Shown in pieces: positions 27,665 through 35,236 of a stretch of DNA of 64,000 nucleotides. Source of the stretch: Acidimicrobium ferrooxidans (GTDB taxonomy: Bacteria > Actinomycetota > Geothermincolia > Fen-727 > Anoxymicrobiaceae); contig DYIU01000001.1 in assembly GCA_020723485.1 (NCBI GenBank), positions 496,001 through 560,000 of the forward strand. Reading direction: 5' to 3'. Position numbers and translations under genes: made by a program. The notes under the pieces were generated by a model that saw only the letters and a program-made list of their open reading frames with translations, made no database searches and was not told the origin of the DNA. Positions within the stretch are counted from its first letter, which is position 1; each line of letters opens with the position of its first letter.

Positions 27665-28159
27665 CTACTTCTTGAGGTACCCGTTCTTTATGTTTTTACC
27701 CCGGTAGTTGTCCGTCTGCGCGTGACAGTTCGGACAAAGCAACTGAAGGTTCTCCAGCCTGTGATCGAACCTGTTGCCGTTCACATGATTCAATTCTAAC
27801 GCTATTTCACTGTCGTTCCAGGTCTTCAGGCCACACTTCTCGCAGATATGCTCCTTGAGGCCGGCAGCGATGATGCGTTTCTTCAGGTTCTGGGTGTTTG
27901 TATAGGTTGAGTTCTCAACGAGGATCTCTTCAAGAGGAATGGTATTGAACAAAGACAGCCCCATGATATCGCCCCTGTTCCAGCCCTGGCCTGTCATGTG
28001 AGAAGTATCAATGTTCATCTCATCGATGATCTTATAGATGGTGGTGTAATTGGCGCCTTCAGGTTTCATGCCCACCTTTATTAAGGCTTGCCTTATAGAC
28101 CTCGATGTCTCCAGTGCCTCTTTCAAATCTTCCACTGGGTACTTCCGCCTTCGCGGCAT
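27665..28159 (-). CDS. HNH endonuclease
   Basis: This 164-residue protein ends with an HNH nuclease domain: CEKCGLKTW near residue 111, then LELNHVNGNRFDHRLENLQ and LLCPNCHAQTDNY. The N-terminal half looks like a helical DNA-binding region (SIRQALIKVGMKPEGANYTTIY). The start ATG 28159 has GGAGGAAGA. The gene sits 7 bases downstream of tRNA-Leu and is AT-richer than its neighbours (27 of 60 bases are G or C in 27661-27720 and again in 28021-28080). This suggests acquisition, possibly as a free-standing homing-type nuclease, but no intron or element end is visible. Confidence 0.85.
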   Translation of the reverse strand: MPRRRKYPVEDLKEALETSRSIRQALIKVGMKPEGANYTTIYKIIDEMNIDTSHMTGQGWNRGDIMGLSLFNTIPLEEILVENSTYTNTQNLKKRIIAAGLKEHICEKCGLKTWNDSEIALELNHVNGNRFDHRLENLQLLCPNCHAQTDNYRGKNIKNGYLKK

Positions 28160-28253
28160 ATCTTCCTCCGGAGCTTTGCCTGTACTGCTTTGATTGTACA
28201 GCGGGGCACGGACAAGTAATCCAAGCTTATTCCGCGCGGCTGGGGTGCCGCGC

Positions 28254-29234
28254 TCAGGAGGTGGCTAACCGGCGGTGAAGGTCGAGCACAAGGCCGTCGA
28301 GGATGTCCTTCTCGCTGACCAGTATCTCGTCGAGGCCGGCGAGGTCCATCACGACGCGGAGCACCGCGGCGCCCCCGACTATGATGTCGGCGCGGCCCGG
28401 CTCAAGGCCCATCAACTTCTTGCGCTCCTCCAGTTCGACCGAGGCGAGCTTCCTGAACAGCTCCTCGACCTTGGCGCGGGTGAGCCGCGAATGATGTATT
28501 CGGTCGGTGTCGTACTCCTCGAGCCCCATGTTCATGCCCGAGAGAGTGGTGACGGTCCCGGCGAGCCCGACCGCGAGCGCCGGCTTCTCGCCCCCGAGGA
28601 GCGAGCTCACGGCGGGCTTCACGGCCTGCACTATGTGGGACTCCATGCGCCCGACGGAGACCGGGGAGGGAGGGTCAGTCTTGAGGAACCGCTCGCTCAT
28701 CCTGACGCAGCCGACGTTCACGCTGCGCATTGAGAGCGAGTCGGGCGCCGCGCCGGGGCGCGCGGCTCCGGCCTCGCCGACTATGAGCTCGGTGCTCCCG
28801 CCGCCGATGTCGAACACGAGCACGGGCCCCTCCAGGCCTGCCGTTTCCTCGCCCAGGCCGGAGACCGCCCCGAGGAAGCTCATCATCGCCTCCTCGTCGC
28901 CGGAGAGGACGCGCGGCTTCACGCCGATTACCCCCTCGGCCCGGTCCAGGAACTCCCAGGAGTTGTCACACCCTCGCAGCGCCGCGGTCGCGGCCGCGGC
29001 TATGCCCGCTGGCCCGAGGGGGGCCATCACGTCGCGGTACCCCTCCAGCGCGGCGACGGTGCGCTCCACCGCCTCGGGCATGAGGCTGCCCGCCTCGTCC
29101 ACGCCCTCACCAAGGCGGGTTATCACCATCATGCGCTCGACCGTCTCCGTGCGCTGGCCGTCACAATCGGCGACCAGCAGCCTGGTCGAATTGGTCCCTA
29201 TGTCAATCGACGCAAGTCTCAGGGGGGTGCTCAC
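28254..29234 (-). CDS. ppx: Ppx/GppA family exopolyphosphatase
   Basis: This 326-residue protein hydrolyses polyphosphate or the ppGpp precursor pppGpp. It has the ASKHA entry ASIDIGTNSTRLLVAD, the catalytic-Glu region VDEAGSLMPEAVERTVAAL, and the second phosphate site VFDIGGGSTELIVGE near residue 135. The GTG at 29234 is chosen because GGGAGGAC precedes it and the family motif starts 8 residues later. It overlaps the DUF501 gene by 32 bases. It ends the long housekeeping operon that starts at mfd, as in many actinobacteria. Confidence 0.92.
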   Translation of the reverse strand: MSTPLRLASIDIGTNSTRLLVADCDGQRTETVERMMVITRLGEGVDEAGSLMPEAVERTVAALEGYRDVMAPLGPAGIAAAATAALRGCDNSWEFLDRAEGVIGVKPRVLSGDEEAMMSFLGAVSGLGEETAGLEGPVLVFDIGGGSTELIVGEAGAARPGAAPDSLSMRSVNVGCVRMSERFLKTDPPSPVSVGRMESHIVQAVKPAVSSLLGGEKPALAVGLAGTVTTLSGMNMGLEEYDTDRIHHSRLTRAKVEELFRKLASVELEERKKLMGLEPGRADIIVGGAAVLRVVMDLAGLDEILVSEKDILDGLVLDLHRRLATS

Positions 29235-29769
29235 ACGTCCTCCCGGCGTTCCTGACCAGCTCCTCGAGGCACCATCCTCCCACAACTCCCCTCCCGCTTG
29301 CGAGCCTGTAGGCGAGGTGCGCGTGCAGGCACTTCACGTCGCCGGGCCTGCCCCCTGCCACCCCGCGTCCCTCCACCCGCCGCGCCGCCTCGCCGCTCAC
29401 CAGCCGCGCCAGCCTCACCTGCATCGCCCCGAAGCGCTCCTCCTCCGCGAGGAACTCCTCCCGTTCGGCCGCCCGCCCCTCCAGCATCCCGGCGAACCTG
29501 CGAGCCGCACCCCCGCTTTCAAGCCCGCCGACGAAGCGGCCGGCGTGAGGGCAGGTGAGCCAGAGCAGTGGGGGCGTGGGACCGCCGGAGACGGCGGACG
29601 GCATCGTGAGGATGACGGTAGGGCGCCCGTGCCTGCACCTCGCGGCCACGAAGACGTCTCCAGAAGGGGGCCTCCCGAGCTGCCGCTCGACGATTCCGAG
29701 GTCGTTCTCTCCGGGGGTCTCGAGCCTGGGGAACTCGGCCAGCGCCTCGGTCGGCGCAGCCCCGCTCAC
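29203..29769 (-). CDS. DUF501 family protein
   Basis: This 188-residue protein matches DUF501, which lies between ftsB and ppx in actinobacteria. It has DLGIVERQLGRPPSGDVFVA near residue 22, CRHGRPTVILT, LLWLTCPH, and a C-terminal GDVKCLHAHLAYRLASG with conserved Cys and His residues. The function is unknown. The GTG start at 29769 overlaps the TGA of the upstream gene (GTGA at 29766-29769). Confidence 0.88.
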   Translation of the reverse strand: MSGAAPTEALAEFPRLETPGENDLGIVERQLGRPPSGDVFVAARCRHGRPTVILTMPSAVSGGPTPPLLWLTCPHAGRFVGGLESGGAARRFAGMLEGRAAEREEFLAEEERFGAMQVRLARLVSGEAARRVEGRGVAGGRPGDVKCLHAHLAYRLASGRGVVGGWCLEELVRNAGRTCEHPPETCVD

Positions 29770-30320
29770 TGGTATATCACGGTCATAAGGGCGATCCGCC
29801 AAGAGTCGCCCTCCCTTGCGAAATGGGTCTCTACCTTGCTCCTGCCGCCGGCCTTGTACTCCACGTAGCCTACGACCTTGGCGGCAGTGCCGTTCACCTC
29901 GTAAGTCGCGCAGCGGTAGCCCCCGACCTCCCTGAGGAGCATGTTGTTCGCCTTCGCGTTCGCGACGAACTCGTCGTAGCTCGTGACGTCCTTCAGGCCT
30001 TTGCACAGGTTGCCGTAAGCGGAGCGGAAAGCCCCCTTCCGGGTCGCCTCGAGGTGCTCCTGCAGGACTATGCACGGGTTGTCCGGGTCGGGCTGGTGAC
30101 CGGTGTCCGTCGAGAATCCGGTCAGGTCGAACTCGGGCCCCGGCGGGGGAGGCTCTGTGTTGAACGCGGTGCGGTAGACGGCGAACGCGGCGGCAGCGAC
30201 TATCACGATGAAGGAGAGGAGCAGCACCCTCGCGTAGAACTTCCGGTCATAGGAGCGCGGCTCCACCGCCTCGTAGACCGGGTGCCTGTGCTTTTGCTTC
30301 TTCTCGCGGGCCGGGCTCAT
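29766..30320 (-). CDS. Single-pass membrane protein with an NTF2-like outer domain
   Basis: This 184-residue protein has a basic cytoplasmic N-terminus, one membrane segment (about 31-50, VLLLSFIVIVAAAAFAVY), a short Pro-rich linker and a domain of about 110 residues. That domain has a cone-like NTF2 or DUF4878 pattern (ATRKGAFRSAYGNLCKGLKD, then YDEFVANA, ending WRIALMTVIY). Such domains often bind small molecules or partner proteins outside the membrane. It lies 10 bases after the B-box gene and is coupled to DUF501. Confidence 0.7.
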   Translation of the reverse strand: MSPAREKKQKHRHPVYEAVEPRSYDRKFYARVLLLSFIVIVAAAAFAVYRTAFNTEPPPPGPEFDLTGFSTDTGHQPDPDNPCIVLQEHLEATRKGAFRSAYGNLCKGLKDVTSYDEFVANAKANNMLLREVGGYRCATYEVNGTAAKVVGYVEYKAGGRSKVETHFAREGDSWRIALMTVIYQ

Positions 30321-30330
30321 CTGGCGATGC

Positions 30331-33153
30331 TCACTCCCAGAAAGGTTCCGGCTCTCCCCCCTTGCCCCTGTCCTTCTTCTCGGTATCTTCCTCGAAGAAG
30401 AAGGAATCGAGTTTCTCCTCCGCCGGAGGGCCCGGCGGTGGCGGGCCCCCTGGAGGCGGCGGGGGCGGCGTCTCGTACGCGGGCGGCGGTTCCGGAGCCG
30501 GCGGGGGCGGCGTCTCGTACGCGGGCGGCGCTTCAGGAGCCGGCGGAGGCGGCGCTCCCTCCTGCCCGGAAGCCCAGCCTACGCTGGTCAAGCCCTCGGC
30601 GTCGGAGATGCTCTGCTCCCACCCCCGGTCCACCGGAGGCGGGGGCGCGGCGCCCGGGGCCTGCCCGCCCTGGGGAGGCGCCTCGTCGAAAGGCCAGTCG
30701 TAGTCCCCGGCGGGAGGCGGCGGCGCCGCTTCCGGGGGAACGGTGTACTCGGTCGTCTGCTCGAGCGGCGAAGGCTCGGGGGGCGGCTCCTCCTGCGCCG
30801 GCACGGGCCGCTCGCCCATCAGCTCCTGGTACTCGGGTGGGAGCTTGTAGTCGTCGGCGGTCACGTGCTCGGGCCTTATCTGCTCCATCATCCCGCCGTC
30901 CTCCTCGAACGGGACGGGCGGCGCCTCGGCCTGGAACGGCTCTTCACCGGGCGGAGCCGGCTCGCCAGGCGGCGGGGCCGGGGGCTCCTCGAACGCCGGG
31001 GGGGGTCCCACCGGCGGTGGCGCCAGCGGCTCCTCAACTGCCGGCGGCGGCGCGGCAAGCGGCTCCTCGAATATCGGCGGCGGCGCGGCCAGAGGCTCCT
31101 CGAAAGCTGGAGGCGCTTCTGCTACAGGGGGTGGCGGGGCCTCGTAGGCTGGTGCGGCCTCGGCGAATGGAGGAGCGGGTTCCGGTGACAGCGGAACCGA
31201 TTCTACGTCCCAGGGAGCGACATCCCCGGCCACCTCGTCCGCGGTCACGGGAGGGGCCTCGAAAGCCGGTGGCTCCTCGAACGGAGGAGGTGCGGGCGCC
31301 AGCGGTTCCTCGAAAGTGGGCGGGGCTTCGCTCACCGGGGGAGCTGCGGCCTCCTCGAAAACCGGCGGGGCCTCTGCGAAAGTAGGCGGCGCTTCCGGTG
31401 GTGCCTCCTCAAAAGCAGGCGGGGCCGGAGCCTGGTCCATGGTCGGGGGCGCCTCGATCCCGGGCGGGGCCTCGAAAGCCGGCGGCTCCGTGACCGGGGG
31501 TGCAGGCGCGGGCGCTATCGGTTCCTCGAACGAGGGGGGCGCCTCAGCGAAAGTAGGCGGCGCTTCGGCGAACGGCGGTGGAGGTGCCGGAGCCTCAACG
31601 GCCGGGGGTGGCGCCTCGTACGCGGGAGCCTCCGGCTGCGGAGCCTCCACGTATGCGGGCGGGACCGGCGGCACTACCGTCGGCATCACTCCGGCAAGGG
31701 CCTCGGGAGCCTTGCCCTTCTTCGCCTTCTTCGGGGGCTTCTCTTTCTTGACCCGCTCCGGCTTCTCTCGCGGGGCCTTGACCGGCTTTTCCTTCTTGAC
31801 CCGCTCCGGCTTCTCCCGGGGGGCCTTGACCGGCTTCTCGCGCGGAACCTTCGGCGGCTTCTCTTTCTTTGCCTTTCCCCTCTTGCCCGGTGCTTCTACG
31901 GGCGCCGGGGCAGGGGCCTGCACGTAAGCCGGCGGCGCGGCCGCGTATTCAGGCGGCGCGCCGGGCGCATACTGGGGCGCGGCCGGCGGAACAGGCATGC
32001 CGGGGGCCGCCATTCCAGGCGGCGGGTACCCCGGAGGAGCGGGCGCGCCCATCACCGGGGCCTCGGGGAGCTCGCCCTTCTTCGGCTTCTTCGGCGGCCT
32101 CTCCTTCTTCACCCGCTCCGGCTTCTCGCGCGGGACCTTGACCGGCTTTTCCTTCTTCACCCGCTCCGGCTTCTCCCGGGGGGCCTTGACCGGCTTCTCG
32201 CGCGGGGCTTTGACCGGCTTCTCCCGCGGGACCCTGCCCTCGGGCTGGAGCAGCCCCTCCGCCTCCAGCTCCTGCACGTCCCCGGTCGGCGCCACGACGA
32301 GCGGCTCGTGCGTGTACGCCGCGGCCTCGCGTATCTCCAGGGCCTGGGGCGGCGCGGGCGCGGTTGGCGCGGCAGCCGCGGGCGGTACCTGGGCGCCCAT
32401 CACCGGGGCCTCGGGGAGCTCGCCCTTCTTCGGCTTCTTCGGGGGCTTCTCTTTCTTGACCCGCTCCGGCTTCTCGCGGGGGGCTTTGACCGGCTTCTCG
32501 CGGGGGGCCTTCGGGGGCCTCTCTTTCTTCGCCCTGCCCTTCTTGCTTTTCGCCTCCTCCTCCGCGGCTGGAGGCGCCTGATAAGCCGGCGCGGCCGCCT
32601 GCTCGACTGCCGCCACAGACGCCAGCATCTCGTACGCCGGGGGCTCTTCATCGACAGCCGGCTCCTGGTAGGCGGGCGGCTCCTCCAGTGCCTGGGGGGG
32701 CTCCTCGAACGTGGGTGGCGCGCTGTACTCAGGGGCAGGTGGAACCTCCGCTGCCGCAGCGGGCGGAGGCGGCGGGGCGGCTTGGGCCGGTGGGGCGGCC
32801 ACCTGAGGCGGCGGGGGCGCCGCCGCTTCGGGCATCACCGCCGCTTCGGGCATCACCGCGACTGCGGGGACCGCCTCGGCGAGCTCGGGCTCGCCCTTCC
32901 GTTTCTTCGGAGCTTTTTCCTTCTTGGGCTTCGGGGGCTTCGGCGCCCTGGCCGGCTTCTGGGCTCTCGGCGCCTTGCCTATCGGGGTGTTCATCTTGGC
33001 GGCGAGCTCGGCTACCTCCTTCTGGTGGCACGCCGGACACCTCAAGACCTGTCCCGTCTCCTTGACGCACTCCGGACAGATGCCCTCACCACACTCGAGG
33101 CACTTGCCGATCACCGCCTGGCCCGGATGCCGTTCACAATCCAAGACATTCAC
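30331..33153 (-). CDS. B-box zinc finger protein with very long Pro/Glu- and Lys/Arg-rich repeats
   Basis: This 940-residue protein opens with a Cys/His cluster (CERHPGQ at residue 6, GKCLECGEGICPECVKE at 17-33, RCPACHQ at 38), a B-box-like zinc finger. Almost all the rest is predicted disordered. It alternates acidic Pro/Ala-rich stretches (AFEEPPA-like units) with basic blocks built from APREKPVK and PERVKKEK units; three large basic blocks are encoded at about 32401-32555, 32052-32240 and 31697-31885. The end is acidic (SFFFEEDTEKK). No membrane segment is seen. It lies 95 bases after the ftsB-like gene. ATG 33153 follows GGGGAGTGA. Function unknown; a scaffold for nucleic acid, polymer or divisome partners is possible. 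Confidence 0.75.
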   Translation of the reverse strand: MNVLDCERHPGQAVIGKCLECGEGICPECVKETGQVLRCPACHQKEVAELAAKMNTPIGKAPRAQKPARAPKPPKPKKEKAPKKRKGEPELAEAVPAVAVMPEAAVMPEAAAPPPPQVAAPPAQAAPPPPPAAAAEVPPAPEYSAPPTFEEPPQALEEPPAYQEPAVDEEPPAYEMLASVAAVEQAAAPAYQAPPAAEEEAKSKKGRAKKERPPKAPREKPVKAPREKPERVKKEKPPKKPKKGELPEAPVMGAQVPPAAAAPTAPAPPQALEIREAAAYTHEPLVVAPTGDVQELEAEGLLQPEGRVPREKPVKAPREKPVKAPREKPERVKKEKPVKVPREKPERVKKERPPKKPKKGELPEAPVMGAPAPPGYPPPGMAAPGMPVPPAAPQYAPGAPPEYAAAPPAYVQAPAPAPVEAPGKRGKAKKEKPPKVPREKPVKAPREKPERVKKEKPVKAPREKPERVKKEKPPKKAKKGKAPEALAGVMPTVVPPVPPAYVEAPQPEAPAYEAPPPAVEAPAPPPPFAEAPPTFAEAPPSFEEPIAPAPAPPVTEPPAFEAPPGIEAPPTMDQAPAPPAFEEAPPEAPPTFAEAPPVFEEAAAPPVSEAPPTFEEPLAPAPPPFEEPPAFEAPPVTADEVAGDVAPWDVESVPLSPEPAPPFAEAAPAYEAPPPPVAEAPPAFEEPLAAPPPIFEEPLAAPPPAVEEPLAPPPVGPPPAFEEPPAPPPGEPAPPGEEPFQAEAPPVPFEEDGGMMEQIRPEHVTADDYKLPPEYQELMGERPVPAQEEPPPEPSPLEQTTEYTVPPEAAPPPPAGDYDWPFDEAPPQGGQAPGAAPPPPVDRGWEQSISDAEGLTSVGWASGQEGAPPPPAPEAPPAYETPPPPAPEPPPAYETPPPPPPGGPPPPGPPAEEKLDSFFFEEDTEKKDRGKGGEPEPFWE

Positions 33154-33248
33154 TCCCCGGAATCATAAGAGCTCGAAAGAGCCTATTTGCCCCAGTCTCG
33201 GTTCTCCTCATGATAATTAGAGCTTGGCAGAGTTCGCCCTTCCGCTCA

Positions 33249-33803
33249 TCACTGCCCGCGGGGAACGCTGTGGAGCATCTGCCTCACCCGGGCCCACGCC
33301 TCTTCCTTCGACTGGATGGCTTTGACCCGGTACTTCACCTCGTTCTCGGAGCTGTCGGTCGTCACCAGGTAAAGAATCTCCCCGGGCGCCACCAGTCGCT
33401 GCTTGCGGGCCTCCTTTTCGACGTAGTCGAGCGTTCCGGCTTCGGCGACGTCTTTTTTCAGAGATTCGGTAACGGCTTTCTGATTCTTGAGCTCATCGGC
33501 GAGCCTGTTCAGCCTGGACCTGGCCTCGAGGTTCCGGCTCACCGGGCTCACGGACAGGACCACGAAGAGGACGAACAGCGCGATGATTATCGCCGCCCGG
33601 GGCGACGCGCCGGAGATGAACGCGGCGACTTTTTTCACGCCGGTCTTCGGCTCGGACCGCGCGGCCCTCGAGGTCTTCGCGCTTGCGCGTCCGCCACTGC
33701 TGGAGGCGCTCCCACGCGGGATGGTGTCACCGCGACGGGTGGCCGGAGGCGGCCTTCGCCCCGGCCGCACGGCGGCCGCGGGTGCGCCACTGCGCCTATC
33801 CAT
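33249..33803 (-). CDS. ftsB: FtsB/DivIC-like septum formation initiator
   Basis: This 184-residue protein has a basic, Ser/Arg-rich cytoplasmic leader (about 1-70), one membrane segment (IIIALFVLFVVLSVSPV) and a coiled coil (about 100-135, RLADELKNQKAVTESLKKD). YVEKEARKQRLVAPGEILYLV follows, the FtsB/DivIC hallmark. These proteins act in the divisome with FtsL and FtsQ. The start ATG 33803 lies two bases after the pyk stop, so translation is coupled. The location between enolase/pyk and DUF501 is the usual one in actinobacteria. Confidence 0.88.
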   Translation of the reverse strand: MDRRSGAPAAAVRPGRRPPPATRRGDTIPRGSASSSGGRASAKTSRAARSEPKTGVKKVAAFISGASPRAAIIIALFVLFVVLSVSPVSRNLEARSRLNRLADELKNQKAVTESLKKDVAEAGTLDYVEKEARKQRLVAPGEILYLVTTDSSENEVKYRVKAIQSKEEAWARVRQMLHSVPRGQ

Positions 33804-33805
33804 TC

Positions 33806-35236
33806 TTACTCCACCGTGTGTACGTGCACGACATTGGTCTTGCTGCTCTCCTCGTCTATGAAGCCGCCGGTCACGACCACTACGTCGCCCCTGTTGACCC
33901 AGCCGGCTTTGACGCACGCGCCCGTGGCCTCGCGGATCATGCTCCGCAGGTCCGGCTCCTCGCCGATGACGACCCCTTTGATGCCCCACACGAGCGTCAT
34001 GGCGCCGACAACGCGGGCATCGGGGCTCACCGCGAGGATGGGGGTCCCCGGGCGGTACCGCGCTATCAGCCTCGCCGTGTACCCGCCCCTCGTCATCGTG
34101 ATTATCGCCCTGGCGCCCACGTCAGCGGCGACCTTGCAGGCGGCGAAGCCTATCGCGTCGGCGGTTCCCTGGTGCGTCCAGCGGCCGCGCTCCTCCAGTA
34201 TGCGCCCGAAATCCAGTGCACCCTCGGCCCTGGCGGCGATCCTCGCCATCATGGCGACGGTCTCTACCGGGTAGTAACCGATGGCGGTCTCCGCGGACAG
34301 CATCACGGCGTCCGTACCGTCCAGTATCGCGTTGGCGACGTCGCTCGCCTCCGCCCTTGTCGGGCGTGGCTTCTCCACCATCGACTCGAGCATCTGAGTG
34401 GCGGTGACCACCGGCCTCGCCGCCCGCACCGCCCGGTCTATGAGGTCTTTCTGGACGATGGGGACTTCCTCCGGCTCCATCTCGACGCCGAGGTCACCCC
34501 TGGCCACCATGATGCCGGAGGCGGCCTCGAGTATCTCGTCTATGTTGTCCACGGCCTGTGGCTTTTCTATCTTTGCGATGACGGGTGCGCGGACCCCTAT
34601 CTCTTCCATTGCACTGGTCAGGTCGCGGACGTCCCCGGCGGTCCGTACGAACGACTGCGCGACCCAGTCGACACCCGCCTGGAGGCCCGCTTCGAGGTAA
34701 GCCCTGTCACGCTTTGTGAACGCGGCCAGGTTCAGGACCGCGCCGGGGAAGTTCATCCCCTTGCCCTGTAGCAGCGTGCCGCCCTCCTCGACCTCGGTGC
34801 GTATCTCGCGGCCCTCGATGCCGGTCACCTTCAGCCTTATCAGCCCGTCGTCCATCAGGACGGTGTCGCCCGGCCGCAGGTCCTGCGGAAGGCCCTCGTA
34901 CTCGACCGACACGCCCGAGGAATCCCCGCGACTGGGCTTCGTGGTGATGGTGAAAGCCTGCCCGGCGACCAGCACGACGCTGGACCCCTTGATCGGCCCC
35001 ACCCGCAGCCTCGGGCCCTGGAGGTCCAGCATCACTCCGACCCTGCGCTCCGACTCGAGCGACGCCTGCCTGACCATCTCAGCGTAGCCGGCCACCTCGT
35101 CTGGTGCGCAGTGGCCGCTGTTTATGCGGGCCACGTCCATCCCGGCAGCCACCATGCGCTTGAGAACCTCCAGCTCACCCGACGAGGGCCCCAGCGTGCA
35201 TATTATCTTTGTCTTGAGCGAGTCGTCCGTAGCCAT
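33806..35236 (-). CDS. pyk: Pyruvate kinase
   Basis: This 476-residue enzyme makes pyruvate and ATP from phosphoenolpyruvate and ADP. It shows TKIICTLGPSS, the catalytic-Lys strand AKIEKPQAVDNIDEIL near residue 220, metal-site MVARGDLGVEMEPEEVPIVQK near 243, and TATQMLESM plus PTRAEASDVANAILDGTDAVMLS. The first K+/nucleotide motif, normally R-x-N-F-S-H-G, reads RINSGHC here (residues 38-44), keeping R, N and H but changing F, S and G. A regulatory C-terminal domain of normal size follows. It lies 22 bases after the enolase-family gene. Confidence 0.9.
   Translation of the reverse strand: MATDDSLKTKIICTLGPSSGELEVLKRMVAAGMDVARINSGHCAPDEVAGYAEMVRQASLESERRVGVMLDLQGPRLRVGPIKGSSVVLVAGQAFTITTKPSRGDSSGVSVEYEGLPQDLRPGDTVLMDDGLIRLKVTGIEGREIRTEVEEGGTLLQGKGMNFPGAVLNLAAFTKRDRAYLEAGLQAGVDWVAQSFVRTAGDVRDLTSAMEEIGVRAPVIAKIEKPQAVDNIDEILEAASGIMVARGDLGVEMEPEEVPIVQKDLIDRAVRAARPVVTATQMLESMVEKPRPTRAEASDVANAILDGTDAVMLSAETAIGYYPVETVAMMARIAARAEGALDFGRILEERGRWTHQGTADAIGFAACKVAADVGARAIITMTRGGYTARLIARYRPGTPILAVSPDARVVGAMTLVWGIKGVVIGEEPDLRSMIREATGACVKAGWVNRGDVVVVTGGFIDEESSKTNVVHVHTVE

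Follow-up and report, generated by a model that had tools for sequence, protein, structure and literature searches.

In Caulobacter, the zinc finger of ZitP binds PopZ (available text of PMC5182065), and the acidic, Pro-rich linker of PopZ tunes condensate fluidity (available text of PMC9512792). In Corynebacterium, GlpR joins oppositely charged intrinsically disordered regions (IDRs) in the actinobacterial divisome (available text of PMC10522489). By the tests made here, none of these proteins is a homolog of the product of the gene described below, and we use them as its nearest working models. As far as the consulted part of PMC5182065 describes it, ZitP resembles the gene product in having a cytosolic N-terminal zinc finger, which in ZitP docks onto a disordered hub. 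However, the ZitP finger is a zinc_ribbon_5 that has four Cys and one zinc, and ZitP also has a membrane helix and DUF3426, whereas the gene product has eight ligands and none of these. The PopZ IDR carries -0.28 charges per residue and 29% Pro (consulted part of PMC9512792), compared with -0.17 and 34% in residues 487-912 of the gene product. In PopZ, the ends are helical and the length of the linker is conserved, whereas the gene product has a zinc finger, a peptide tip and a variable length. No PopZ-family match was obtained in Pfam and NCBIfam scans, which returned only zf-B_box, and the N-terminus is a zinc finger, not the PopZ helix. GlpR, as described in the consulted part of PMC10522489, is an actinobacterial division-site protein that shares the oppositely charged disordered regions; unlike the gene product, it has three membrane helices and is a Glp receptor, and a zinc finger is not mentioned in that part. 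Pfam and NCBIfam scans of the full protein gave no match to known divisome families, PADLOC anti-phage defence models gave 0 families at E 0.1, and none of the three scans matched the long middle of the protein.

The gene lies on the - strand of the window (the whole stretch of 64,000 nucleotides that was analysed) at 30331..33144 and comprises 937 codons plus a stop. The first-pass annotation had described an ORF of 940 residues at 30331-33153. The ORF is present, but its GTG start at 33153 was rejected, and a TTG nine bases further in, at 33144, is the most likely start. The homology of every ortholog begins at the residue encoded by this TTG, the codon there is always ATG, GTG or TTG, and it is preceded by a purine-rich Shine-Dalgarno-like stretch (GGAG-type or similar); a protein of 937 residues is therefore likelier than one of 940. 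The product consists of 27% Pro, 17% Ala, 14% Glu and 8% Lys, and no membrane segment was seen when the sequence was read by eye.

The gene belongs to an unannotated family that is fixed behind ftsB across an order of uncultured Actinobacteria, with conserved ends and motifs and quickly evolving charged repeats; no paper on this ftsB-linked finger/tip family was found in the open-access literature. A relative that carries the gene is assigned to Ca. Geohydrothermomicrobium (class Ca. Geothermincolia, order Ca. Geothermincolales, family Ca. Anoxymicrobiaceae). In a search of 59 relatives with the N-terminal finger (the head), matches at E 1.3e-20 or better came from 10 of the order's 12 other genomes, and 11 of the 13 order genomes, the source genome included, carry the gene directly after ftsB. 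True loss was rejected for the other two. In G009, ftsB lies 193 bases from the contig end, and the flank holds a ribosome site and the first ten codons of the gene (LECKRHKGQE, spotted by eye and then translated); in G002, neither ftsB nor DUF501 was found. Because G009 shows these first codons, the gene follows ftsB in 12/12 order genomes in which the 3' flank of ftsB is assembled. A scan of the genome contigs gave 7 loci, of which the weak L053 was dropped. Around the head, FtsB was found in 10/10 ortholog loci, pyruvate kinase in 9/10 and MazG in 9/10, and DUF501 and Ppx were also near where the contig reached them. For the other orders of the class, 10 stretches were fetched around DUF501, with matches to the C-terminal query taken into account at 1e-6 or better; the head was found in 0/10 of them and an ftsB match in 4/10. 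The ORFs of four of these ten stretches were read, and genes that we take to be hydratase-like stood in place of the gene. Frameshifts and absence in close relatives, named in the first-pass annotation as grounds against the gene, were both looked for, and neither told against it.

The putative cross-brace (B-box-like) zinc finger occupies residues 1-50 (32995..33144, - strand), and its predicted ligands C3, H6, C15, C18, C23, C26, C36 and C39 are invariant in 11/11 orthologs. A B-box finger was proposed earlier; the match to Pfam zf-B_box (PF00643; E=0.0027, 18.3 bits) falls below the gathering cut-off of 24.1; it was the sole match of the gene product in a Pfam scan at E 0.01, which gave no zinc_ribbon_5 or DUF3426. 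An AlphaFold2 model of residues 1-58 was compact (mean pLDDT 82). The best Foldseek match of the model was weak (E 0.6), as was the best VIA-align match, a FYVE domain (Z 3.6, rmsd 2.3, 48 aligned), below which came PHD, RING-like and B-box fingers, among them TRIM28 B-box1 (Z 2.4, rmsd 2.8, 36 aligned). Eukaryotic B-box/TRIM, FYVE and PHD fingers share the cross-brace ligand spacing and a weak fold similarity, but the scores are low and the sequence of the gene lies below the Pfam cut-off. In a PDB sequence search, 6g6o (Ika8) at E 5.9e-5 was rejected as spurious, since several repeats were summed and none was significant singly; the other matches, RING/B-box and others, were all at E 0.026 or worse. 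The finger is best read as a cross-brace of B-box/FYVE/PHD-like character, predicted to be of two-zinc type and not assigned to a family. The head is a common module: at an E-value threshold of 1e-5, its profile found relatives in 103/296 genomes of the phylum, most of the matches outside the class being much weaker. Among the extra domains of mycobacterial rhomboids, the consulted part of PMC2989971 also lists a B-box zinc finger.

A homologous N-terminal finger occurs in membrane-anchored proteins of the same class (G000:C5, locus L043; L044-L046, unnamed), with 42% identity over 78 residues between the L043 finger and that of the gene (E 6.9e-14). These proteins share a charged Pro-rich or acidic middle with the gene product; unlike it, they end in a hydrophobic, apparently multi-helix membrane segment, as judged by eye. 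The four stretches fetched around them contained no ftsB match, and the SFW[ED] tip was absent. One of them, L046, comes from a different family within the class and carries a separate long acidic repeat, in which a unit beginning EALEIIEEEAREAVLEEEREE occurs three times, an independent expansion in a related protein. In a finger tree built from 55 columns, the 11 operon copies fell on one side of a branch with moderate support (78/88) that was present in 80% of bootstrap trees. Because support for this branch is only moderate, descent of the operon form from a membrane-anchored finger protein is offered as a guess.

Conservation is concentrated at the two ends of the protein. Mean column identity in the eight complete orthologs was 0.74 for residues 1-50, 0.18 for residues 61-745 and 0.68 for residues 912-937 (the incomplete L035, L037 and L039 were excluded from the alignment). 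The C-terminal tip, M4 (SFFFEED..KK....PFWE-COOH, residues 914-937; 30334..30405, - strand), has the consensus SFFFEE-x4-KK-...-SFW[ED] at the very end of the protein. Its profile matched in 10/31 genomes of the class, every time within this gene; it matched in 0/18 class genomes outside the order and in no other protein of the 31 genomes. The window gene combines the finger head, the SFFFEE..SFW[ED] tip and the position after ftsB. Three further motifs on the - strand lie within the middle of the protein: M1, here APTGDVQEL (residues 286-294; 32263..32289; consensus GPTADFxEL), M2, the RPEHVTADDYKLPPEYQELMGE region (residues 749-779; 30808..30900; consensus RPE..DY.LPPEY), and M3, DYDWPFDEAPP with its WPFDE core (residues 814-824; 30673..30705; consensus W[PS][FI][DE][ED]). 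M1 was present in 10/11 N-terminal sequences and not in G004, M2 in 9/11 C-terminal sequences and not in the two f4 genomes, and M3 in 11/11 C-terminal sequences; for these counts, L084 and the divergent M2 of L033 were judged by eye. Outside the operon, 8 of the 21 finger loci examined in the class had an M1-like GPDEDFSxL; in this count, L029 and L044 represent the same gene. In G007, the head was present and a tip match was absent, and the downstream contig begins with unrelated sequence: at its end (L083, G007:C114), the stretch just ahead of the NTF2-like gene does not translate into the tip expected there. This copy may have been cut by an insertion, or it may reflect a misassembly.

Behind the finger follow about 890 residues that are partly acidic and rich in Pro, partly basic and rich in Lys/Arg. 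The basic blocks, all on the - strand, comprise residues 50-88 (32881..32997), 196-244 (32413..32559), 304-360 (32065..32235) and 416-485 (31690..31899), and the acidic Pro-rich tail of residues 487-912 (30409..31686) contains weaker in-frame repeats. The alternation of charge noted in the first-pass annotation is borne out: in 7/8 complete orthologs charge was blockier than in 1000/1000 shuffles, and in the eighth (L042) 10/1000 shuffles reached the observed blockiness (the incomplete L035, L037 and L039 were again left out). The DNA blocks at 32052-32230 and 32401-32520 had been called near-identical. In-frame duplication is upheld, but the wording is slightly too strong, since they have 99 nt in common at 91.9% identity; a third block, 31690-31899, matches the first of them over 166 nt at 89.2%. 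Self-comparison of 11 coding sequences placed internal DNA repeats in 6/11 orthologs, with 20/20 self-matches in frame (these overlap and hence are not independent). Identity was highest in G011 (111 nt at 100%), G007 (287 nt at 97.6%) and G008 (108 nt at 97.2%), where the repeats appear very recent. By these comparisons, the internal repeats are lineage-specific and arose by in-frame duplication. The eight complete proteins have 4, 3, 2, 2, 3, 2, 4 and 2 basic blocks, so that repeat number differs between related genomes, in line with the expansion proposed earlier. One genome bin, G010, contains two versions of the locus on different contigs (L042 and L075) with slightly different repeat numbers, probably a strain mixture.

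The contrast between head, polyampholyte middle and tip suggests a scaffold with binding ends and short motifs, and our best explanation, to which we give about an even chance, is that the product acts in the cytosol as an intrinsically disordered, multivalent scaffold for docking. Fixed protein partners, at least one of them at the membrane, would be bound by the finger and the short motifs; candidates are the upstream FtsB-type protein and the downstream single-helix NTF2-like protein. The short motifs would thereby tie the scaffold to the envelope or division site, the basic blocks would stick to neighbouring copies at their acidic stretches, or else to an acidic surface such as membrane or nucleic acid, and repeat number would tune the reach and cohesion of a condensate-like assembly. 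In a more specific form, which we put forward only tentatively, the protein may serve the division or pole machinery of Ca. Geothermincolia as a cytosolic hub specific to the order; this hub would descend from a finger protein with a membrane anchor, and the number of basic modules would set its cohesion. If so, the relatives would form a natural series on condensate tuning, with 2, 3 or 4 basic blocks and 447-937 residues. If the protein is a division-site or pole scaffold, its orthologs already provide a set of disordered bacterial hubs that differ in length and valency.

Repeats would likewise be tolerated by a flexible linker with little specific function. A mostly passive spacer is a rather unlikely alternative, in which the finger and tip alone would count and the repeats would reflect near-neutral slippage in DNA rich in GC. 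This reading would accommodate the poorly conserved middle, the twofold range in the length of complete copies (447-937 residues) and the 5/11 orthologs without a self-match at E 1e-8. However, the basic repeat copies of the window differ at 16 silent codons and 1 replacement codon (four overlapping comparisons), basic blocks are present in all orthologs, and M1-M3 survive within the middle.

We consider it unlikely that the product is a nucleic-acid or ribosome-associated protein, in which the Lys/Arg-Pro blocks would act as tails of the histone-H1 or AlgP type and the finger would add specificity. This reading draws on the strongly basic character of blocks such as REKPVKAPREKPERVKKEKPPKKPKKG, on the mostly silent differences between their copies, and on the PHD, piggyBac and ribosomal-protein fingers among the finger's weak fold matches. 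On the other hand, net charge is negative in all eight complete orthologs (-47 to -68), only 1 to 3 basic blocks follow the first, and the best-kept parts outside the finger are acidic-aromatic, unlike DNA-binding tails.

The gene sits among housekeeping genes, which on the - strand run in the order SurA/PPIase-like, MazG, enolase, pyruvate kinase, DivIC/FtsB, the gene, a 184-residue membrane protein, DUF501 and Ppx/GppA. The upstream neighbour was correctly described as ftsB-like (33249..33989 as listed, - strand; Pfam DivIC 2.9e-10), and its true start is probably further in, because the listed ORF overlaps pyk. The membrane-protein gene downstream, the partner candidate (29766..30320, - strand), encodes one membrane helix and an NTF2-like extracytoplasmic domain. 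A hydrophobic helix predicted at residues 26-53 was read as the membrane helix, the NTF2-like domain (pLDDT 66) matched NTF2-like and SEC-C-motif proteins in Foldseek at E 1.9e-4, and the product is weakly Rv0361-like, with a match below the cut-off. This gene was found in 9/31 class genomes, all of the order, and in 9/10 genomes whose assembly covers the stretch ahead of DUF501; since G010 has the finger gene without it, the membrane protein is no obligate partner. The housekeeping run itself is variable, as in 3/10 ortholog loci (L034, L039, L042) no enolase was seen between mazG and pyk.

The gap between ftsB and the gene (33145..33248, - strand) contains the Shine-Dalgarno stretch and a weak -10-like TCTAAT at about 33216-33221, and an exact TATAAT occurs in 5/11 such gaps. 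The summed best -10 match was 59, compared with 49.1 +/- 1.7 in shuffles (0/500 reached 59), and the paired -35/-10 score was 91, compared with 86.2 +/- 2.4 (16/500 reached 91); the shuffles preserved base composition, not dinucleotides. Transcription may thus begin afresh at the gene, apart from ftsB, and extend over the membrane-protein gene, DUF501 and ppx. The place after ftsB is fixed as claimed, but this promoter-like box weakens the argument for a divisome operon, and the neighbourhood, from which a role in the envelope, division or nucleoid had been proposed, is suggestive only. In G006 (L040 5805-5896), the same gap contains a perfect inverted repeat of 32 nt, its arms 28 nt apart, possibly a REP- or MITE-like element.

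The Ppx-GppA gene three genes downstream raises a link to polyphosphate, which the Lys blocks would bind or be modified by; polyphosphate-binding proteins and Lys polyphosphorylation have been reported from other systems. We regard this as quite improbable: DUF501 and ppx adjoin in other orders of the class without the gene, so the ppx linkage is independent of it. The orthologs contain 1-5% Ser, which is poor for the PASK type.

The gene is real and coding. Long antisense ORFs in the region and contigs that break in or at the gene in 4/12 genomes (G001, G007, G008, G009) might suggest a spurious ORF in 72% GC DNA or an assembly error, but this is scarcely credible, as head, motifs and tip are conserved across genera, GC by codon position (0.791/0.572/0.812) resembles that of the neighbouring genes pyk, eno and ppx and differs from that of the antisense ORF at 29823-31385 (520 aa; 0.845/0.672/0.607), and the window copy, inside contig 3 of the 11 contigs of the source genome, is unbroken within a contig of at least 560,000 bases. 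Random ORF drift, already doubted in the first-pass annotation, is ruled out by this conservation across relatives. Because assemblies break there, the gene may go unnoticed or appear truncated in many metagenome bins. Downstream of ppx, an HNH-endonuclease-like gene at 27665-28159 (- strand; Pfam HNH 19.9 bits, below the cut-off of 21.4) lies where the region ends in low-GC DNA (GC 0.58 at 28000-28499) and is perhaps a mobile insertion.
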